A stretch of 64,000 nucleotides of DNA from Hanstruepera marina (GTDB lineage: Bacteria; Bacteroidota; Bacteroidia; Flavobacteriales; Flavobacteriaceae). Shown in pieces: positions 37,393 to 45,153 of this stretch (within the stretch, counting starts at the first letter, position 1; the number at the start of each line of letters is the position of its first letter). The notes beneath the pieces are model-generated. The model was not told the DNA's origin and did not search any database. It saw nothing but the letters and a program-made list of their open reading frames with translations. The position numbers were made by a program, and so were the translations under genes. Where the stretch lies: NCBI RefSeq assembly GCF_019880635.1, contig NZ_JAINVX010000002.1, positions 310,001 to 374,000 on the forward strand, written 5' to 3'.

Positions 37393-37446
37393 CGCGTATT
37401 TTTTGCAAATAACGTAAAAAAATAAGGTTTTGGTTAGAATGATATA

Positions 37447-37560
37447 GAGATTCTTCGTTTCACTGCGTTCACTCTGAAATCGAAGATTCGACCTAGTCAA
37501 TGACATTTTGCTTGTCATTGCGAGGAGGTCCAAATACTTTGGGACGACGTGGCAATCTCT
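37447..37560. repeat. C-B inverted repeat unit, copy 1
   Basis: The unit starts GAGATTCTTCG and ends GGCAATCTCT, so its ends are inverted copies of GAGATT. At its centre CAATGACA, a TTTTGCT loop and TGTCATTG form a hairpin. The B half has GGTCCAAATACTTTGGGACG, a hairpin tip with one mismatch. Confidence 0.8.
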
Positions 37561-37663
37561 TTCAGAGTACTGGTGTTATTTTTGAAATTGTTTTATTGTT
37601 TTGTTAGGTTGAGGGCAGTTGAGACTTAATTATATTCAAGTTTTAGTACTTTCTTTCTTTTTT

Positions 37664-37878
37664 TTAAACTCCCCTTCCTTTGTCTCCACCAGCTCCGACA
37701 AATTCATTGGCCTAGCGCCAGCTCGCTCCTGCGCTAAAATAGTCCGCTGGACTATTTCTTAACGCTTGGCCGTGTCTGAAGAGGGGAGCTAGTTTAGTTT
37801 TAGTTCATTTCCGAAGGGCTCCTCCCTTGAGTTGAAGGGAGGTGGCTAGGTTTGGTAAAACCTAGACGGAGGGTTTGA
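37664..37878. repeat. D repeat, copy 1 (full length)
   Basis: About 215 bp from TAAACTCCCCTTCC to GGAGGGTTTGA. The left half holds GGCCTAGCG ... CGCTTGGCC around AAATAGTCC-GCT-GGACTATTT. The right half has CCTCCCTT / AAGGGAGG and then a hairpin CTAGGTTT-GGTA-AAACCTAG. The same order of modules recurs in copies at 38136 and 43849. Confidence 0.85.
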
Positions 37879-37900
37879 TTAAAAAACGCTAATCGAAGTA

Positions 37901-37960
37901 CGGCAATCTCATTTTCTCTTATTATGAGATCCTGAAACAAGTTCAGCATGACAGAGAGAT
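37901..37960. repeat. B/C-related fragment
   Basis: CGGCAATCTC is followed by GAGATCCTGAAACAAGTTCA and GCATGACAGAGAGATT. The ends are GAGAT/AATCTC-like and the core CTGAAACAAGTTCAG is self-complementary. It is a degenerate member or a separate small family. Confidence 0.5.
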
Positions 37961-37980
37961 TAGCTGCGCTGAACCTAAAG

Positions 37981-38091
37981 GTTTCTTCACTTTGCTTCGC
38001 TTGTTCTGAAATCGAAGACTCGACCTAGTCAATGACATTTTGCTTGTCATTGCGAGGAGGTCCCAATACTTTGGGACGACGTGGCAATCTC
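37981..38091. repeat. C-B inverted repeat unit, copy 2
   Basis: The C half is diverged (GTTTCTTCACTTTGCTTCGC) but then carries CTGAAATCGAAGACTCGACC, the CAATGACA / TGTCATTG centre, and a B half with the perfect tip GTCCCAA-TACT-TTGGGAC, ending GGCAATCTC. Confidence 0.8.
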
Positions 38092-38135
38092 AAATTAAAA
38101 TGGGTAAGATTTGAAATAGTAATACTTTGCAACAG

Positions 38136-38353
38136 TCAAACTCCTCTTTCTTTACTTCCGTTAAAACTTCAGTAAATTCATTGCCAATGCGCGAGCTCAC
38201 ACCTGTGCTAAAATAGTCCGCTGGACTATTTCTTAACGCTTGACCGTATTTAAAGAGGGGAGCTGTGCTAGTTATAATTAATTAACCAAGAGGCTCCTCC
38301 CTTCATCTGAAGGGAGGTGGCTAGTCTCGTAAGAGGCTAGACTGAAGGTTTGA
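38136..38353. repeat. D repeat, copy 2 (full length, diverged)
   Basis: About 218 bp from TCAAACTCCTC to AAGGTTTGA. AAATAGTCCGCTGGACTATTT is conserved. The right-hand tips differ from copy 1 yet remain paired: CCTCCCTTCA-TC-TGAAGGGAGG and CTAGTCTC-GTAA-GAGGCTAG. Confidence 0.8.
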
Positions 38354-38440
38354 AAAGCGTTCTACAACCTACCATATTTTACGATAAAGCGAAAAGCTTA
38401 CAACGTTCATCGTAAAAAAACCAAAATTTAGGGGATATGT

Positions 38441-38470
38441 TTTGATATTCCTCGTGAAAGGCTATATTTG
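38441..38470 (+). promoter_or_regulatory. Promoter of the capsule export operon
   Basis: TTTG (38441-38444), an 18-bp spacer and TATATTTG (38463-38470) match the Bacteroidota promoter consensus closely. The predicted transcript start is about 15-20 bp before the wza-like ATG at 38493. It is the best promoter candidate in the capsule half of the window. Confidence 0.65.
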
Positions 38471-38492
38471 TGATGAAACCGATGCCCTAATT

Positions 38493-39287
38493 ATGAAGCA
38501 TTTATATATTGTATTTTTGGTTGTTATGGTCTGTGTCATGCAGTCCTGTATTCCCAATAAAAAGTTGGTATACCTACAAAACCAAGAAGCCGCTTTAGAT
38601 AGTACATTAATTTTAACCGAAGCTCAAAAACCCTACCGTGTACAGATTAATGATATTTTAAATATTGTGGTCAAGGTCATGGATCAAAATAATGTACAGA
38701 TTTTTAATCCAGCAGGTGAACGTCAATTAAACGCTAATGGTGAGGAGCGTGCTTTTTTTGATGGCTTTACGGTGGACTTACATGGCAATATTCGCATACC
38801 AGTACTCGGTGAAATAAATGTCTTAGGTTATACCACAGAAGAGATTGAGGAGTTATTGGAGAAAAAACTATTGGAAGAAGAGTTTAAAGAGACAGCCAAT
38901 ATATTTGTAAGTGTCAAACTAACGGGATTGCGTTACACGGTTAACGGCGAAGTGGGCAGTACAGGAACCCATACACTATACCAACCTCGTGTTAATGTGT
39001 TTGAAGCTTTGGCCAATGCTGGCGATATTACCGTCACAGGGAATCGCGAAGATGTGTTGATTATAAGGCAATACCCAAACGGACAACAGATCCATCATTT
39101 AAATTTATTGGATGTTAATGTCATGAAGTCACCCTACTATTATATTCAAATGAATGATATAATATATGTGAAGCCTTTAAAGCAAAAATCTTGGGGAACG
39201 GGTACAACAGGGCTTCAAACTTTGGGAACAATCATTACGGCATTGTCTTTGGTTACAACAACTTTATTATTGATAGATAGACTATAG
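38493..39287 (+). CDS. Polysaccharide export outer-membrane lipoprotein, Wza-like
   Basis: The ATG at 38493 gives 264 residues with a lipoprotein signal (MKHLYIVFLVVMVCVMQSC). A TTG at 38442 upstream lies in the promoter and is rejected. The Poly_export domain (PYRVQINDILNIVVKVM, GNIRIPVLGEINVLGYTTEE) and an SLBB-type segment (YTVNGEVGSTGTHTL) follow. The C-terminus has a hydrophobic stretch (TLGTIITALSLVTTTLLLI). It forms the outer-membrane exit channel for capsule or exopolysaccharide together with the BY-kinase encoded 2 bp downstream. Confidence 0.92.
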   Translation: MKHLYIVFLVVMVCVMQSCIPNKKLVYLQNQEAALDSTLILTEAQKPYRVQINDILNIVVKVMDQNNVQIFNPAGERQLNANGEERAFFDGFTVDLHGNIRIPVLGEINVLGYTTEEIEELLEKKLLEEEFKETANIFVSVKLTGLRYTVNGEVGSTGTHTLYQPRVNVFEALANAGDITVTGNREDVLIIRQYPNGQQIHHLNLLDVNVMKSPYYYIQMNDIIYVKPLKQKSWGTGTTGLQTLGTIITALSLVTTTLLLIDRL

Positions 39288-39289
39288 AC

Positions 39290-41767
39290 ATGGCAGAATA
39301 CGGATTCGAAGATAAGGATGTTGAAACTGGCGGGATGGCTTTCGATTTTAGAGGATTTTTGTTTAAAGCCCTCAATCTATGGAAATTAGTCTTATTGTCA
39401 ATTGGTTTAGCACTTATTGTAGCTTATTTAATAAATGTACGGAAGCAAAATGTTTACCGATTAAGTTCTTTAATTTCCGTTGAGAACGATCAAAACCCGT
39501 TTTTTACGGCGAATACTAGTATTTCCTTTAATTGGGGTGGGGTGTCCGGTAAAATGGGGAAAACCATCACTACGCTAAAAACACGAACCCATAATGAAAA
39601 AGTAGTTGATTCTTTAAAATCGTATCTAAATTATTATGTGGAGGGTAAATATAATAAAATAGACGTTTATAAGCAGGCGCCTTTTGTTTTTGTCCCGGTT
39701 TTGAGTGAATATCAAGTTAGGGGTCATTTTATAGGTATCCGTTTTGTTAGTGAAAATACCTTTCAAATAGTTACTAATTTTGAAAATGAACAAGGTCTTG
39801 CCCAACGTTATGATACGAAGCAAAAAAAACCGGTTGATTTACCTCTGGGAGATTTTGTTAAGGAATACTCATTAGGCGATTTAATACAGTTACCATTCTT
39901 AAATGGTATCATAAACATACGTAATAATCGTGTTATAAAACCGGGATCAGAATTTTTTATAAGATTTTCTGATTATGATGGATTGGTTTACTCATATCAA
40001 AGAAATATCAAGGTTAGCCCATTTAATCAAAATTCTGCGTCTGTATTGGTTTTGGCACTTACAGGAAATAACAAAGCGAAAATTGTAGATTATTTAAATA
40101 CAACAGCTGTTATTTTAAGCGAAACCGAACTGAAACGTAAAAACCAGTATGCAACCAATACCATTAAGTTTATTGATAGTAGTCTAGCAGCGGTAAATGA
40201 TAATCTGAAAGATGTTAATGAGGAAATGAACCAATTCCGTAAGGAAAACAAGGTTTTCGATGTGTCGGAGGAAATGAATCAAATTTCTGAAAAACTGAAA
40301 CAATATGAGGCTGAACGGGAGGCCGAGAACATTAAATTAGATTATTTAAAGACCTTGGAAACCTATCTGCGAACCAAAACTGATTATACTAATATTGCGG
40401 CACCAAGTTCGGTAGGTATTGAGGAGTCGAATATCCAACAATCTGTGTCTAAAATTACAGCTTTGGCTATTGAGCGTCAAAGCTTGGAATATACAACGCG
40501 GGAAGGTTCAGATCTATTTAAGGATATTGATAGAAGGATTGATGCCGAAAAGAATGTCCTATTGGAAACCATTGATGCCACCCGAAACACTATTCGAGTC
40601 TTGCTGCAAGGTCTAAACCGGAATGTAGCCAGTATGGAGGCAAAATTAAGTGAGCTTCCGGAAGACCAGCAGGAATATCTTAAGATTCAACGCAAATTAG
40701 ATATCAGTCAGGAGGCCTATAATGTGTATATGGATAAGCGCAGTGAGGCTGCCATAGTTAAAGCGGCCAACATTTCAGATATTAGTATAGTTGATGAGGC
40801 CAAAGATATTGGAGGCGGACTTATAGGACCCAATAAGTCGTTAAACTATATGATGGGTTTGATGATAGGTTTTTTTACGCCTATGTTTCTCATTTTCATT
40901 ATCTTTTTGCTAGATAATACCATACATGGTTCAGACGAGGTAGAACGGTTATCCAAAATTCCTATTTTAGGACTTATTGGTAAATACCGCTACCATAATA
41001 ATTTAGTGGTGTTTGAGAAGCCTAAATCGGCAGTAGCAGAGTCCTTTCGCTCTATCCGATCGTCTTTACAGTTTATATTGAATAAAACTCCGCGTGATGA
41101 TGGTCGAACCATAATGATTACCTCTTCGGTAAGTGGGGAGGGAAAAACATTTTGTTCTATCAATATCGCTACGGTGTATGCCTTAAGTGGTAAAAAAACC
41201 ATCTTATTGGGGCTGGATTTACGGAAGCCCAAAATATTTGATGATTTTAATATTACCAACGATTTAGGTATGGTGAATTATCTTATCGGCGAATCGGATT
41301 TTGATACGGTTAGTCATAAAACTCATATCGATAATTTAACGATAGTGACAGCTGGGCCTATTCCACCTAACCCTTCAGAATTATTGATGAGTGACCGTAT
41401 GCGAACGCTAATGACAGATTTACGGCAGACCTATGATATTATTATATTGGATACGCCGCCATTAGGCTTGGTTACTGATGCTTTGGAATTGGTTAAATAT
41501 GCCGATACTTCTATTTTTATGGTACGCTTGGATTATACCAAAAAGGGTATGTTACAGCTTGTTAATGCCAAGTACAGGGCTGGGGAGATTAAAAACATCA
41601 ATTTTGTCTTGAATTTTTATAAACATAAAACCAATCATAACTACGGCTATGGCTACGGCTATGGTTATGGCTATGGCTATGGTTATGGCGTGTATGGGAA
41701 TGCCTATCATGAAGATGGTAAACTATCTGCCTTTCAAAAGGTTAAGCGCTTCATAAAGAGGTTTTAA
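39290..41767 (+). CDS. Wzc-type tyrosine autokinase / polysaccharide co-polymerase
   Basis: 825 residues: an N-terminal membrane helix (about 32-50), a long periplasmic Wzz/GNVR region with coiled coil, and a second membrane helix (about 525-545, MMGLMIGFFTPMFLIFIIFLL in part). The cytoplasmic BY-kinase has Walker A SVSGEGKTF (about 613-621), Walker A' LLGLDLRKPKIF and Walker B IIILDTPPLGL. The C-terminus carries a Tyr cluster of eight consecutive GY-type units, the usual autophosphorylation site. It controls chain length and export with the Wza-like lipoprotein. The DNA under the Tyr cluster is a tandem hexamer. Confidence 0.93.
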   Translation: MAEYGFEDKDVETGGMAFDFRGFLFKALNLWKLVLLSIGLALIVAYLINVRKQNVYRLSSLISVENDQNPFFTANTSISFNWGGVSGKMGKTITTLKTRTHNEKVVDSLKSYLNYYVEGKYNKIDVYKQAPFVFVPVLSEYQVRGHFIGIRFVSENTFQIVTNFENEQGLAQRYDTKQKKPVDLPLGDFVKEYSLGDLIQLPFLNGIINIRNNRVIKPGSEFFIRFSDYDGLVYSYQRNIKVSPFNQNSASVLVLALTGNNKAKIVDYLNTTAVILSETELKRKNQYATNTIKFIDSSLAAVNDNLKDVNEEMNQFRKENKVFDVSEEMNQISEKLKQYEAEREAENIKLDYLKTLETYLRTKTDYTNIAAPSSVGIEESNIQQSVSKITALAIERQSLEYTTREGSDLFKDIDRRIDAEKNVLLETIDATRNTIRVLLQGLNRNVASMEAKLSELPEDQQEYLKIQRKLDISQEAYNVYMDKRSEAAIVKAANISDISIVDEAKDIGGGLIGPNKSLNYMMGLMIGFFTPMFLIFIIFLLDNTIHGSDEVERLSKIPILGLIGKYRYHNNLVVFEKPKSAVAESFRSIRSSLQFILNKTPRDDGRTIMITSSVSGEGKTFCSINIATVYALSGKKTILLGLDLRKPKIFDDFNITNDLGMVNYLIGESDFDTVSHKTHIDNLTIVTAGPIPPNPSELLMSDRMRTLMTDLRQTYDIIILDTPPLGLVTDALELVKYADTSIFMVRLDYTKKGMLQLVNAKYRAGEIKNINFVLNFYKHKTNHNYGYGYGYGYGYGYGYGVYGNAYHEDGKLSAFQKVKRFIKRF
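41642..41689 (+). repeat. Tandem hexanucleotide repeat in the wzc-like gene
   Basis: Eight units of TAYGGY (TACGGC, TATGGC or TATGGT) encode alternating Tyr and Gly. Unit gain or loss would change the number of tyrosines without shifting the frame. Confidence 0.9.
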
Positions 41768-41801
41768 AGTTTCAAGCTATTATTAATAATTGGGATTATA
41801 T

Positions 41802-43085
41802 ATGGAACATCATATTACTATTGTAGGTCTGGGATATGTAGGCTTGCCATTAGCAGTTGAATTTGCTAAGCACTATCCGGTAGTGGGTTTTGATATTAAT
41901 ACCAAGCGTGTAGTGGAGTTGCGTTCCGGTACAGACCGTACTTTAGAGGTGCCTTCACCCGAATTACAGGCCGTATTAGCGGTAGACAAGCAATCAAAAG
42001 GGCTTTACATTACGGACCAAGTGTCCGATTTGTCACAATCCAATGTTTACATTGTAACGGTTCCTACACCTACAGACGACTTGAACAAACCCATTTTTAC
42101 ACCTTTAATAAAGGCTAGTGAAAGCGTTGGAAGTGTTTTGAAGCAAGGGGATATCGTCATTTATGAATCTACGGTCTATCCGGGTGTTACCGAGGATATT
42201 TGTGTGCCTATTTTAGAGCGTGAGTCTGGATTACAATTTAATATGGATTTTTATGCGGGCTATTCCCCAGAGCGTATTAATCCGGGTGATAAACAACATA
42301 CCGTGACTAAAATATTAAAGGTAACATCGGGCTCCACACCCGAAATCGCCAAAATTATAGACGATTTATATAAATCAGTAATTACTGCAGGTACCCATAT
42401 GGCACCGTCTATTAAGGTGGCCGAGGCGGCGAAGGTTATTGAAAATTCACAACGGGATATCAACATTGCCTTTGTTAATGAGCTATCCAAAATTTTTCGC
42501 CTCTTGGATATTGATACCAAAGCTGTTTTGGAAGCGGCAGGAACCAAATGGAATTTTATTAAGTTCACTCCGGGTCTAGTAGGCGGGCATTGTATAGGCG
42601 TAGATCCTTATTATTTAGCGCAAAAAGCCATTGAATCGGGGTATAACCCCGAGATTATTTTGGCAGGGCGTAAAATGAATGATAGCATGGGCAGTTATGT
42701 GGCTACCGAAACCGTGAAAATGATGATAAAAAAGGGGGCAACCATTAAGGATTCCAGAGTATTGGTTCTGGGTATTACCTTTAAGGAAAACTGTCCTGAT
42801 ATTCGCAATTCTCGGGTTATCGATATTATTCGCGAGTTTGAAACCTATGATATTCAAGTGGATGTGTACGATCCTTGGGCATCGGCAGACGAAGTGCAGG
42901 AGGAATACGGTCTCGATTTAATTTGTAGTGATACATTGTTGGGCACTGACTACCAAGCTGTGGTTTTGGCCGTTTCTCATGATAAGTTTACAGATTTAAA
43001 TATTCAAAACTTAAAAGCTCCTTCTGGAGTAGTTTTTGATGTAAAGGCTATGTTGCCAGCCGAGCAGACTGATGCGCGGTTGTAG
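41802..43085 (+). CDS. UDP-N-acetyl-hexosamine 6-dehydrogenase, TviB/WbpO-like
   Basis: The ATG at 41802 gives 427 residues (MEHHITIVGLGYVGLPLAVEF). A TTG 12 bp upstream is unlikely. The Rossmann motif GLGYVG, the VPTPTDD and YESTVYPG segments, GYSPERINPGDK, the catalytic Cys265 in GGHCIGVDPYY, and TFKENCPDIRNS are all present. The sequence resembles Salmonella TviB very closely by eye, so the likely reaction is oxidation of UDP-GlcNAc or UDP-GalNAc to the uronic acid. Its usual partner, a TviC-like epimerase, lies at 44173, separated here by a repeat island. Confidence 0.92.
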   Translation: MEHHITIVGLGYVGLPLAVEFAKHYPVVGFDINTKRVVELRSGTDRTLEVPSPELQAVLAVDKQSKGLYITDQVSDLSQSNVYIVTVPTPTDDLNKPIFTPLIKASESVGSVLKQGDIVIYESTVYPGVTEDICVPILERESGLQFNMDFYAGYSPERINPGDKQHTVTKILKVTSGSTPEIAKIIDDLYKSVITAGTHMAPSIKVAEAAKVIENSQRDINIAFVNELSKIFRLLDIDTKAVLEAAGTKWNFIKFTPGLVGGHCIGVDPYYLAQKAIESGYNPEIILAGRKMNDSMGSYVATETVKMMIKKGATIKDSRVLVLGITFKENCPDIRNSRVIDIIREFETYDIQVDVYDPWASADEVQEEYGLDLICSDTLLGTDYQAVVLAVSHDKFTDLNIQNLKAPSGVVFDVKAMLPAEQTDARL

Positions 43086-43149
43086 TACTCTAAATCCCTA
43101 AAGAGGTTATTCATATGAACATGATTATCTATAGATTGAAGCCAAGTTG

Positions 43150-43215
43150 GGGCTCCTCCCTTTAGATAAAGGGAGTTGGATAAACTGTTGAAAACAGTTT
43201 AGACGAAGGGTTTGA
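43150..43215. repeat. D repeat, right-end fragment
   Basis: GGGGCTCCTCCCTTTA, a short loop, TAAAGGGAG, then ATAAACTGTTG / ACAGTTTAG and GAAGGGTTTGA. Only the right half of the D element is present. Confidence 0.75.
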
Positions 43216-43237
43216 AATAGTAATTATATATTTTAAA

Positions 43238-43398
43238 TCAAACTCCCCTTCCTTTGTCTCCGCCAGCTACGACAAATTCATTCCCCCTCTTCATCTGAAG
43301 AGAGGAGCTTAAATGGATAGTATATTACCAACTGGCTCCTCCCTTTAGATAAAGGGAGGTGGATAAACTGTTGAAAGCAGTTTAGACGGAGGGTTTGA
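43238..43398. repeat. D repeat, copy 3 (internally shortened)
   Basis: 161 bp from TCAAACTCCCC to GGAGGGTTTGA, lacking the AATAGTCC module. In its place is CCTCTTCA-TC-TGAAGAGAGG. The tip is ATAAACTGTTG / GCAGTTTAG. Its central spacer (TTAAATGGATAGTATATTAC) is the same as in copy 4. It ends 1-2 bp from the stop of the DUF559 gene. Confidence 0.85.
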
Positions 43399-43399
43399 A

Positions 43400-43765
43400 T
43401 TAGTTTTTAAAATTAAGAGCAATCGCTTTTAACACAGAAGGTAAATTTTCAAAAACTAATTTATTTTCAAATCGAATAACCGTATAGCCTAAATTTTCTA
43501 AATAGCTAGAACGTATATTATCATACTCTTGAGTTACTGGATTGTTGTGAACTTCACCATCTAGTTCAATGATAAGTTTTTCGGATGCACAGTAAAAGTC
43601 TACAATGTAGTTTCCAATACTATGTTGTTTTGTAAATCGTTTGCCTTTTAACTGCCTTGACTTAATATGTGTCCATAAAAACGCTTCAGCTGGAGTCAGT
43701 TTTTTTCTTAATTCCTGTCTTTTGGTTTTTAACTGGCTTTTGTTGTGTATGTGTTGTTTGGGCAT
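43400..43765 (-). CDS. DUF559 endonuclease-like protein (PD-(D/E)XK/Vsr-type fold)
   Basis: The 121 residues have a basic N-terminus, LRKKLTPAEAFLWTHIKSRQ, then IGNYIVDFYC with the conserved Asp, and KLIIELDGEVH with the E-x-D pair, followed by YLENLGYTVIRF. These are the hallmarks of DUF559, a Vsr-like PD-(D/E)XK nuclease fold. It is a stand-alone domain, encoded against the direction of the capsule genes, and bracketed by D repeats on both sides (stop 2 bp after copy 3, start 28 bp from a D fragment). Substrate and role are unknown. A link to the repeats is inferred from placement. Confidence 0.88.
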   Translation of the reverse strand: MPKQHIHNKSQLKTKRQELRKKLTPAEAFLWTHIKSRQLKGKRFTKQHSIGNYIVDFYCASEKLIIELDGEVHNNPVTQEYDNIRSSYLENLGYTVIRFENKLVFENLPSVLKAIALNFKN

Positions 43766-43792
43766 GAATTAAATATAATAAATTTAATTATT

Positions 43793-43848
43793 CAAACTCC
43801 TCTTTCTTTGTTTTCGTTGTCCCTGCAGCAAATTCATTCTCCTCTTAT
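43793..43848. repeat. D repeat, left-end fragment
   Basis: It begins TTCAAACTCCTCTTTCTTTG and continues to TTCTCCTCTTA, then is interrupted exactly where full copy 4 starts (TCAAACTCC at 43849). It looks like a D element entered by another D element. Confidence 0.75.
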
Positions 43849-44061
43849 CAAACTCCCCTTTCTTTGTCTCCACAAGCTACGACAAATTCATTGGCCTAGC
43901 GCCAGCTCGCTCCTGCGCTGAAATAGTCCGCTGGACTATTTCTTAACGCTTGGCCGTGTCTGAAGAGGGGAGCTTAAATGGATAGTATATTACCAACTGG
44001 CTCCTCACTTTAGATAAAGGGAGGTGGCTAGGTTTGATAAAACCTAGACGGAGGGTTTGAA
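43849..44061. repeat. D repeat, copy 4 (full length)
   Basis: About 213 bp with all modules: GGCCTAGCG ... CGCTTGGCC, AAATAGTCC-GCT-GGACTATTT, the shared central spacer, the TTTAGATAAA turn and CTAGGTTT-GATA-AAACCTAG, ending GGAGGGTTTGA. The left half matches copy 1 and the spacer matches copy 3. Confidence 0.85.
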
Positions 44062-44172
44062 ATCTTAATAGTGTTACCGTTACTCGATAGACCCAATCCC
44101 TTTATCTAATAGCTTATTATTTCCCTTTGTATTTCTGTGATTAGTGTTATTTTTATAGCATAAGTGTAAACT

Positions 44173-45153
44173 ATGTACGTAAACAAATATCATTCAATCG
44201 ACATATCAAACCTCAACTTTCTTGTTACAGGTGGAGGAGGATTTATTGGTTCTAATCTTGTTGCATACCTCTTAAAACACAAAGCCAAAACCGTACGTGT
44301 ATTGGATAATTTCTCCAATGGGTATCGTGAGAACCTTACCGAATTTATGAATCACCCTAATTTTGAACTTATGGAGGGGGATATCCGTGATTTGGACACC
44401 TGTAAGCAAGCCTTAACCGGTATGGATTATGTAAGCCATCAGGCGGCATTAGGCTCGGTACCACGGTCTATTAACGATCCTGCTACGACTAACGCTGTTA
44501 ATATTTCAGGTTTTTTAAACATGATGATTGCTTTAAAGGATTCTGATACCGTAAAACGGATGGTTTATGCGGCTTCGAGTTCGACTTATGGTGATAGTCC
44601 GTCATTACCAAAAGTAGAGCATACTATTGGAAAACCTCTATCGCCCTATGCGGTTACCAAGTTTGTAAATGAACTCTATGCTGATGTGTTTGGAAAAACG
44701 TATGGTACTGACGTTATAGGATTGCGTTATTTTAATGTGTTTGGCCCTAAACAGAGTCCCAATGGGGCTTATGCAGCGGTGATTCCTTTGTTTATGCAGG
44801 CTTTAAAAGATAATGTGTCTCCTAAAATTAATGGCGATGGTGAGCAAACCCGTGATTTCACCTATGTGGATAATGCCGTGCAAGCCAATGTACGCGGGTT
44901 TTTTGTAACAGATGCAGCCAAAAACCAGGTGTTTAATGTGGCCTGTGGCGAGCGTATTAGTATTAATTACCTATGGGAAAGCCTTCAACATGCTGCAGGC
45001 TCTGATTTACAAGCCGTTTATGGCTCACCACGACAAGGCGATGTGCGTGATAGTTTGGCTGATATTTCTAAAGCAGAACGCTTGCTAGGGTATAAACCTG
45101 AAGTTACAGTTCGTGAGGGTTTGAAACTGACTTGGGATTGGTTTAAGCACTAA
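44173..45153 (+). CDS. UDP-N-acetyl-hexosamine/hexuronate C4-epimerase, TviC/WbpP-like
   Basis: This 326-residue extended SDR starts with FLVTGGGGFIGSNL, then ASSSTYGD and SPYAVTKFVNELY (Ser, Tyr-x3-Lys), FNVFGPKQ and GDGEQTRDFTYVDN. The pattern is that of WbpP/TviC/Gne-type epimerases for UDP-GlcNAc(A)/UDP-GalNAc(A). With the TviB-like dehydrogenase it would supply UDP-GalNAcA, the precursor that gives the polymer its acidic sugar. The two genes are normally adjacent, but here 1.1 kb of repeats and a nuclease gene separate them. Confidence 0.9.
   Translation: MYVNKYHSIDISNLNFLVTGGGGFIGSNLVAYLLKHKAKTVRVLDNFSNGYRENLTEFMNHPNFELMEGDIRDLDTCKQALTGMDYVSHQAALGSVPRSINDPATTNAVNISGFLNMMIALKDSDTVKRMVYAASSSTYGDSPSLPKVEHTIGKPLSPYAVTKFVNELYADVFGKTYGTDVIGLRYFNVFGPKQSPNGAYAAVIPLFMQALKDNVSPKINGDGEQTRDFTYVDNAVQANVRGFFVTDAAKNQVFNVACGERISINYLWESLQHAAGSDLQAVYGSPRQGDVRDSLADISKAERLLGYKPEVTVREGLKLTWDWFKH

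Follow-up and report, generated by a model that had tools for sequence, protein, structure and literature searches.

Palindromic repeats that accompany DUF559 nuclease genes: a possible two-part selfish system in Flavobacteriaceae and other bacteria

The window analysed here is a stretch of 64,000 nucleotides from Hanstruepera marina (contig NZ_JAINVX010000002.1, positions 310,001 to 374,000), in which a small gene of the DUF559 family is found between copies of a palindromic repeat, denoted D. The relevant features, in window coordinates, are the following:

37666-37879, forward strand: full D element without an adjoining DUF559 gene (repeat comparison, model match)
38136-38355, forward strand: full D element, diverged (75%), without an adjoining DUF559 gene (repeat comparison, model match)
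41790-43085, forward strand: UDP-glucose/GDP-mannose dehydrogenase family gene, adjoining the insertion site on the left
43150-43217, forward strand: solo unit b of D, with two hairpins and the tail GGGTTTGAA (alignment, model match)
43238-43399, forward strand: full D element made of unit a, a spacer and unit b; the GTTTGAA of its tail adjoins the DUF559 stop codon
43400-43765, reverse strand: DUF559 (PF04480) nuclease gene, 121 aa (Pfam match)
43791-43846, forward strand: unit a fragment (TTCAAACTCC...CTCCTCTT), truncated at the start of the next D
43847-44062, forward strand: full D element with an extra stretch of ~55 nt, upstream of DUF559; a mosaic of the 37666 and 43238 copies
44173-45153, forward strand: NAD-dependent epimerase/dehydratase family gene, adjoining the insertion site on the right

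The D element is a composite palindromic repeat, in which two different hairpin units (a and b) stand head to head with their tails outward. Unit b opens with a CTCC..GGAG hairpin, which TGG separates from a second hairpin; GAC and the tail GGAGGGTTTGAA follow. The unit ends in alignments are GGCTCC.. and ..GGGTTTGA. The hairpins covary, as 13 of 18 pairs carried changes on both sides among 39 distinct a and b unit sequences, a set that includes partial units and is biased toward the model to which it was aligned; 90.7% of the cells pair in these units, compared with 41-68% when the partners were slid. Inspection of D revealed no GTAG tag at the foot of the repeat, and GTAG was seen only within hairpin 2 of some a units. 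No Rfam match was obtained at E 1 for positions 37400-44200, and D was consequently rejected as a known RNA family. A search of the H. marina genome with the covariance model of unit b, in which 150 of 671 candidates were scored, returned 11 matches (two overlapping others), all confined to 49 kb of contig C5 (347.8-396.6 kb) and clustering around the window DUF559 gene and its paralogue, L003. Thus, within the candidates scored, D was rejected as a genome-wide repeat. Repeats of a CATTGCGAGG..GGCAATCTC type were also noted at 37460-37575 and 37940-38095, beside the two gene-less D copies.

An earlier note on this DNA had described the DUF559 gene as tightly bracketed by D repeats, and this arrangement was borne out with small coordinate corrections. 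The repeat indeed closes on the stop codon, but with no gap of 2 bp, since GTTTGAA ends at 43399 and the stop codon (43400-43402) directly adjoins it. Likewise, a D fragment is present near the start codon, with TTCAAAC beginning at 43791 and thus 25 nt, rather than 28 bp, away; as described, this fragment is cut exactly where the full copy begins (43847). The central piece shared by the two flanking copies (43294-43365 and 43959-44030) is 96% identical, and not identical as first read. The 43847 copy also matches the 37666 copy (89% over 213 bp, including the extra ~55-nt stretch), and because it is a mosaic of this kind the flanking copies can only in part be called recently related to each other.

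The window protein matched PF04480 with E 9.9e-35 and 119.2 bits, well over the Pfam gathering cut-off of 20.6 and across most of the model (positions 3-106 of 109), which places it in the DUF559 family. As its gene is the sole ORF of at least 60 aa between the D copies, a transposon with a DDE or HUH enzyme was ruled out. A predicted structure (pLDDT 90.7) matched the DUF559 structure 3hrl with Z 15.6, the homing endonuclease I-Bth0305I with Z 11.6 (rmsd 3.0 Å over 93 residues; Foldseek probability 1.00) and Vsr (1cw0) with Z 10.0, in agreement with the Vsr-like fold expected by the earlier note. Judged by this model, the window protein is a small nuclease with a Vsr-like fold of the EDxHD kind. 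Our own assignment of candidate active-site residues comprises E27, D56, E67, D69, H73 and D82, of which E27, D56, E67, H73 and D82 were invariant across 45 aligned copies. Both the fold, in the model, and the motif of the EDxHD homing endonucleases (E27, D56, H73 and D82, matched by us to the family motif given in the accessible text of PMC3943268) are hence found in the protein. Elsewhere in the genome, a Vsr-like gene (L004, G000:C4:536005) appears frameshifted and had no such repeats by eye.

The association between gene and repeat was assessed in the 80 DUF559 loci most similar to the window gene, a biased sample with at least 73 loci from Bacteroidota, of which 76 had 250 bp of sequence to either side of the gene and were counted. 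Within this distance, a hairpin with a C/T-only 7-nt arm (pyrimidine arm / purine arm) was found on one or both sides in 76/76 loci and on both in 59/76, against 18/220 and 0/220, respectively, for control ORFs from the same loci. Hairpins of reverse polarity were seen at 13/76 (both sides, 2/76), and the hairpin density fell from 1.3 per 250 bp beside DUF559 to 0-0.07 past 1 kb. These counts support the proposal that DUF559 and palindromic repeats belong together. Among further free-standing DUF559 genes in Flavobacteriaceae, 15/19 had a hairpin, 10/19 had one on both sides and 4/19 had none by this measure, the measured ORF in one of these four (L114) not being the DUF559 gene; measured within 400 bp from the match, 10/11 of the same set were positive. 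Outside the first sample (Cyanobacteriota, Deinococcota, Pseudomonadota and a Bacillota plasmid), a hairpin was present at 14/16 loci, the exceptions being L207 and the Bacillota plasmid L220, and at 1/12 control ORFs, measured slightly less laxly; hairpins on both sides (6/16) are rarer there than in Bacteroidota. C/T-arm hairpins thus lie beside DUF559 in nine phyla, five of them represented by one locus each. Conversely, Y1 transposase (Y1_Tnp) loci in Flavobacteriaceae had such a hairpin in 0/27 cases (30 given). Because the central ORF was possibly not the Y1 gene in part of these 27 loci, the count was redone from the match itself, within 400 bp, in the 23 uncut loci, giving 0/23. For GIY-YIG genes, the values were 1/30 and, measured from the match, 1/26.

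On the genome level, a lax and noisy repeat pattern applied to 149 genomes gave a weak result, with a mean net excess of 3.7 in the 55 genomes with DUF559 and of 0.3 in the remaining 94 (one-sided p 0.0025), and an excess of at least 8 in 10/55 and 6/94, respectively. The positive genomes were assigned by hand, 72 having any match, of which 17 were short or weak, mostly Vsr-like ends. The expected tie between repeats and DUF559-bearing genomes is visible as a higher excess, but an excess is also seen in some genomes that lack the gene. Similarly, DUF559 genes without D, which the earlier note had regarded as evidence against a link, do occur in relatives, since D itself is local; yet the sampled genes have other C/T-arm hairpins.

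The tails of the repeats face the gene on both sides at 28 of the 80 loci, point away at 10, are mixed at 9 and were left unclassified at 33. Two layouts can be distinguished, one with DUF559 between D-type composites with tails facing the gene, as in the window, and the other with DUF559 inside a composite with tails outward; because the orientations vary, the outer ends of the element are not uniquely defined. Direct repeats outnumber inverted ones at the flanks (53/76), and with inverted flank similarity weak and direct similarity stronger, a TIR-bounded transposon was rejected. In Salegentibacter tibetensis (L019), three DUF559 copies stand apparently in tandem with a repeat between them.

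The sequences compared further indicate that repeat versions differ between DUF559 subfamilies and that D is a local one. In three genomes with two DUF559 genes each (55-66% identity), the paired repeats were unrelated (similarity scores 11-13). Of the 12 nearest DUF559 relatives elsewhere, 9 scored at least 20 (top values 160, 93.5, 71, 34.5 and 30), and the remaining three had unrelated repeats (13-15.5). Within H. marina, the window gene and L003 (78% identity) share D with a score of 82, and a MetH-borne DUF559 (42% identity) does not share it (score 10). Across 2850 DUF559 pairs, repeat similarity climbed with identity (rank correlation 0.30; 0/999 permutations as high), and among pairs without common neighbour genes the share with similar repeats was 0.05, 0.15, 0.40 and 0.67 in the identity bins 0.4-0.6, 0.6-0.7, 0.7-0.8 and 0.8 up (n 1972, 681, 75 and 3), host relatedness still being partly mixed into these statistics.

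A comparison of close relatives for empty sites, as suggested by the earlier note, revealed that gene and repeats differ together. The window site carries D-DUF559-D in H. marina (G000) and in two genomes of the same genus (G151 and G152), and is empty in a third (G149), where the dehydrogenase stop has the epimerase gene directly next to it. In a fourth (G150), the site holds a GIY-YIG gene (Pfam E 3.6e-14) between other inverted repeats. This gene (L291:998-1309) is bracketed by CATTACGAG..GGCAATCTC / GAGATTGC..CGCAATGACA, CGTC-like by our reading, and at the orthologous locus of Hanstruepera flava a GIY-YIG gene (L005:4136-4441) lies beside the epimerase, followed downstream by a CATTGCGAG..GGCAATC repeat. 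The idea that GIY-YIG genes partner CGTC-type repeats was set aside as a weak lead only (1/30; 5/30 against 1/7 control ORFs), with CGTC-type motifs at 2/29 and 6/29 of these genes and reversed-motif controls at 0/29 and 1/29.

At the second site, that of L003, the D-DUF559-D arrangement of G000 is replaced in G149 by two D copies ~20 nt apart without DUF559, both flanks being orthologous, and likewise by D-D without the gene in G151, where one flank was matched. The two paralogous cassettes of H. marina lie 43 kb apart among different neighbours. Matches to the D model, some of them overlapping, numbered 10 in G000, 11 in G152, 14 in G151, 3 in G149 and 0 in G150; the difference in D copy number between the window and H. 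flava resembles tandem duplication, which needs no nuclease. A site filled in some relatives and unfilled in others, a trait of homing endonucleases, was thus found at the window site, and also in RecG, LeuS and MetH. Taken as sequence comparisons, these data support mobility of DUF559 with its repeats. The patchy presence could also reflect an old insertion followed by repeated recombination loss; the direct repeats at most flanks facilitate such loss, which may account for part of the patchiness.

The cases in RecG, LeuS and MetH are insertions within host genes. DUF559 with repeats lies in frame in RecG in 4/148 genomes with a match, in the editing region of LeuS in 13/148 (one with a broken frame, two degenerate) and in frame in MetH in 3/100 searched, with a fourth case in G146. 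DUF559 is also fused to a PALP enzyme and to HemD, two of the six HemD fusions (L103 and L122) being assigned by our own reading. Host and DUF559 domains were recognized by Pfam in one frame in 5/5 tested ORFs, and no intein domain was found in five fused ORFs. The joints of the inserts are palindromes, e.g. CCCCCTAGCCCCCAAAGGGGG / CCCCCTTCGGGGGTTAGGGGG in LeuS, and the unfilled sites that were read (15 LeuS, 45-162 nt; 8 RecG, 15-63 nt) hold short variable loops, some with other repeats. In the DUF559 tree, the RecG, MetH and HemD inserts form one clade each, and those of LeuS, RecG and MetH with the insert of L102 a single clade (support 99/97). A tree of the LeuS flanks with 27 rows, 12 of them filled and 15 unfilled, explains the insert with 4 changes (4-6 across bootstraps, 9 in shuffles); the distribution is patchy yet clustered, the clustering being what vertical descent predicts. 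Two LeuS inserts (G113 and G002; L133 and L135) hold DUF559 remnants without the conserved residues, which points to possible structural domestication, and in other genomes (L188, L189, L191, L194, L196 and L200) the same LeuS site carries in-frame CATTGCGA/CATTCCGA-type repeats, as a shared permissive site would.

Among known systems, the Rickettsia palindromic elements are alike in being palindromes inserted in frame in protein genes, and we know of no DUF559 gene associated with them. They are named in the accessible part of Di Nocera et al. 2013 (PMC3733652), which describes GTAG repeats linked to RAYT, CGTC repeats that have no dedicated transposase and no known enzyme, and Y1 genes with GGGGWSAS inverted repeats. 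According to the same text, the REP/REPIN sequences with RAYT (REPtrons) consist of short palindromes, solo or head to head, beside one nuclease gene, with gene-less copies of which some lie inside genes. Here, too, palindromes were found on both flanks of the gene and, unaccompanied by it, at other places. However, RAYT is a Y1 HUH transposase and DUF559 a PD-(D/E)XK/EDxHD-fold protein, and D is without the GTAG foot, low-copy and local. With a PF04480 protein of predicted Vsr-like fold, and no Y1_Tnp match in the H. marina genome, REP-RAYT membership by enzyme was rejected; the RAYT-like role envisaged earlier fits the layout but not the enzyme, DUF559 not being of the HUH kind. The CGTC repeats are similar in that they are palindromes, also inside genes, without a known dedicated transposase (PMC3733652, accessible part), but they differ in sequence and stem, and a CGTC motif of our own definition occurred near 5/80 DUF559 genes (~1 expected from density), far below the C/T-arm hairpins. 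The EDxHD homing endonuclease I-Bth0305I resembles DUF559 in the fold of its catalytic domain and in occupying one site with unfilled alleles in relatives; DUF559 differs in having no extra DNA-binding domain within 121 aa, in that no intron or intein was seen around the gene, and in being flanked by palindromes, with host frames running through the insert. Vsr, the very-short-patch repair endonuclease, is a host repair enzyme to which, to our knowledge, no repeats belong. It shares the fold (1cw0, Z 10.0), and Caulobacter VsrA carries DUF559 (PMC12907096, accessible part). In the accessible parts of the open-access literature searched, no link between DUF559 and repeats was visible.

The association, the matching repeat types, the covariation of the D hairpins, the presence and absence at orthologous sites, the in-frame inserts, the conserved acidic and His residues and the predicted fold form the basis of the reading we favour and hold to be probable, namely that a homing-like DUF559 nuclease and pyrimidine/purine-armed repeats make up a two-part selfish system whose spread would depend on cuts made in or next to the repeats. 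DUF559 would cut or nick DNA within or close to repeats of its own type, perhaps at an extruded hairpin. As in homing, repair would then copy into the cut site either the gene together with its repeats or just the repeats, and D and similar elements would be the gene-less form of the system. Since DUF559 falls outside the HUH class and, among characterised structures, comes closest to a homing endonuclease, break-and-copy is likelier than strand transfer of the RAYT type. That the gene and its repeats come and go together suggests a widespread, overlooked kind of selfish DNA. More tentatively, and at somewhat less than even chances, DUF559 nucleases may drive the widespread palindromic family of the CCCTCTCCC...GGGAGAGGG kind, whose breadth in bacteria is partly general background, as a self-contained mobile class that would spread by hairpin cutting and copying and live in frame in essential genes without splicing. 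Some large bacterial palindromic repeat families have no known enzyme, as stated for CGTC in the accessible part of PMC3733652. Should DUF559 serve one such family, a common protein family without an assigned function, E. coli YcjD included, would gain a role and REP-like spread a second chemistry, and the cases inside LeuS, RecG and MetH, where the reading frame is kept, would illustrate a way for selfish DNA to persist in housekeeping genes.

The strongest rival, which we consider unlikely, is that DUF559 is a guest, i.e. that another enzyme spreads the palindromes and a homing-type gene settles between them, using them as its target. The D-D arrangement without the gene at the second site in G149 and G151, next to D-gene-D in G000, speaks for this reading, and Y1 transposase genes lying between inverted repeats that carry a GGGGWSAS motif are on record (PMC3733652, accessible part). 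However, the genome has no Y1_Tnp match and Y1 loci lie by such hairpins in 0/27 cases (0/23 on the stricter measure), grounds on which RAYT was also rejected as the mover; in the tested pairs the repeats track the DUF559 subfamily and not the genome, and D matches occur only near two DUF559 genes (150/671 candidates scored). A less probable rival holds that the insertions are old, the cassette now being lost via its flanking direct repeats with DUF559 as a dead or domesticated passenger. The one-clade MetH, RecG and HemD inserts, the clustering of LeuS inserts on the host tree, the G113 and G002 inserts without conserved residues and the frequent direct repeats all speak for it, but E27, D56, E67, H73 and D82 are invariant in 45 aligned copies, paralogous cassettes stand 43 kb apart among different neighbours, and presence is patchy both on the LeuS tree and within the genus. 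We give little credence to the repeats as regulatory hairpins (terminators or mRNA stabilisers) moving only with the gene, for although covarying hairpins adjoin the stop codon and could end transcription, repeats stand on both sides in 59/76 loci, inside reading frames and as gene-less D copies. Least credible of all is a mismatch repair enzyme of the Vsr type that happens to be encoded near repeats, in spite of the Vsr fold of the model and the argument, in the accessible part of PMC12907096, that the DUF559 protein VsrA of Caulobacter is a repair enzyme, the association being strong and broad (76/76 loci; 14/16 in other phyla) and coincidence unlikely.

In E. coli K-12, the stop codon of the DUF559 gene ycjD lies inside a C-rich/G-rich palindrome, with another palindrome downstream. 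The gene is present in 3365/5426 complete E. coli genomes, and a 62-nt segment that includes its downstream repeat has matches in 5100/5426, at a median of 4 places each (L355, L358). E. coli was rejected as a source of clean empty sites, since, among the 60 of 5385 records listed, the 22 without ycjD matched sapF only, one of them also a repeat piece; an eef operon is reported at the place of ycjD in the accessible part of PMC12817139. On two cyanobacterial plasmids (L207 and L215), DUF559 overlaps or is in frame with genes beside BREX pglX/brxC, and on three Deinococcus plasmids (L209, L211 and L213) DUF559 lies in aromatic-acid catabolism clusters (hpa, paa) with palindromes flanking it.
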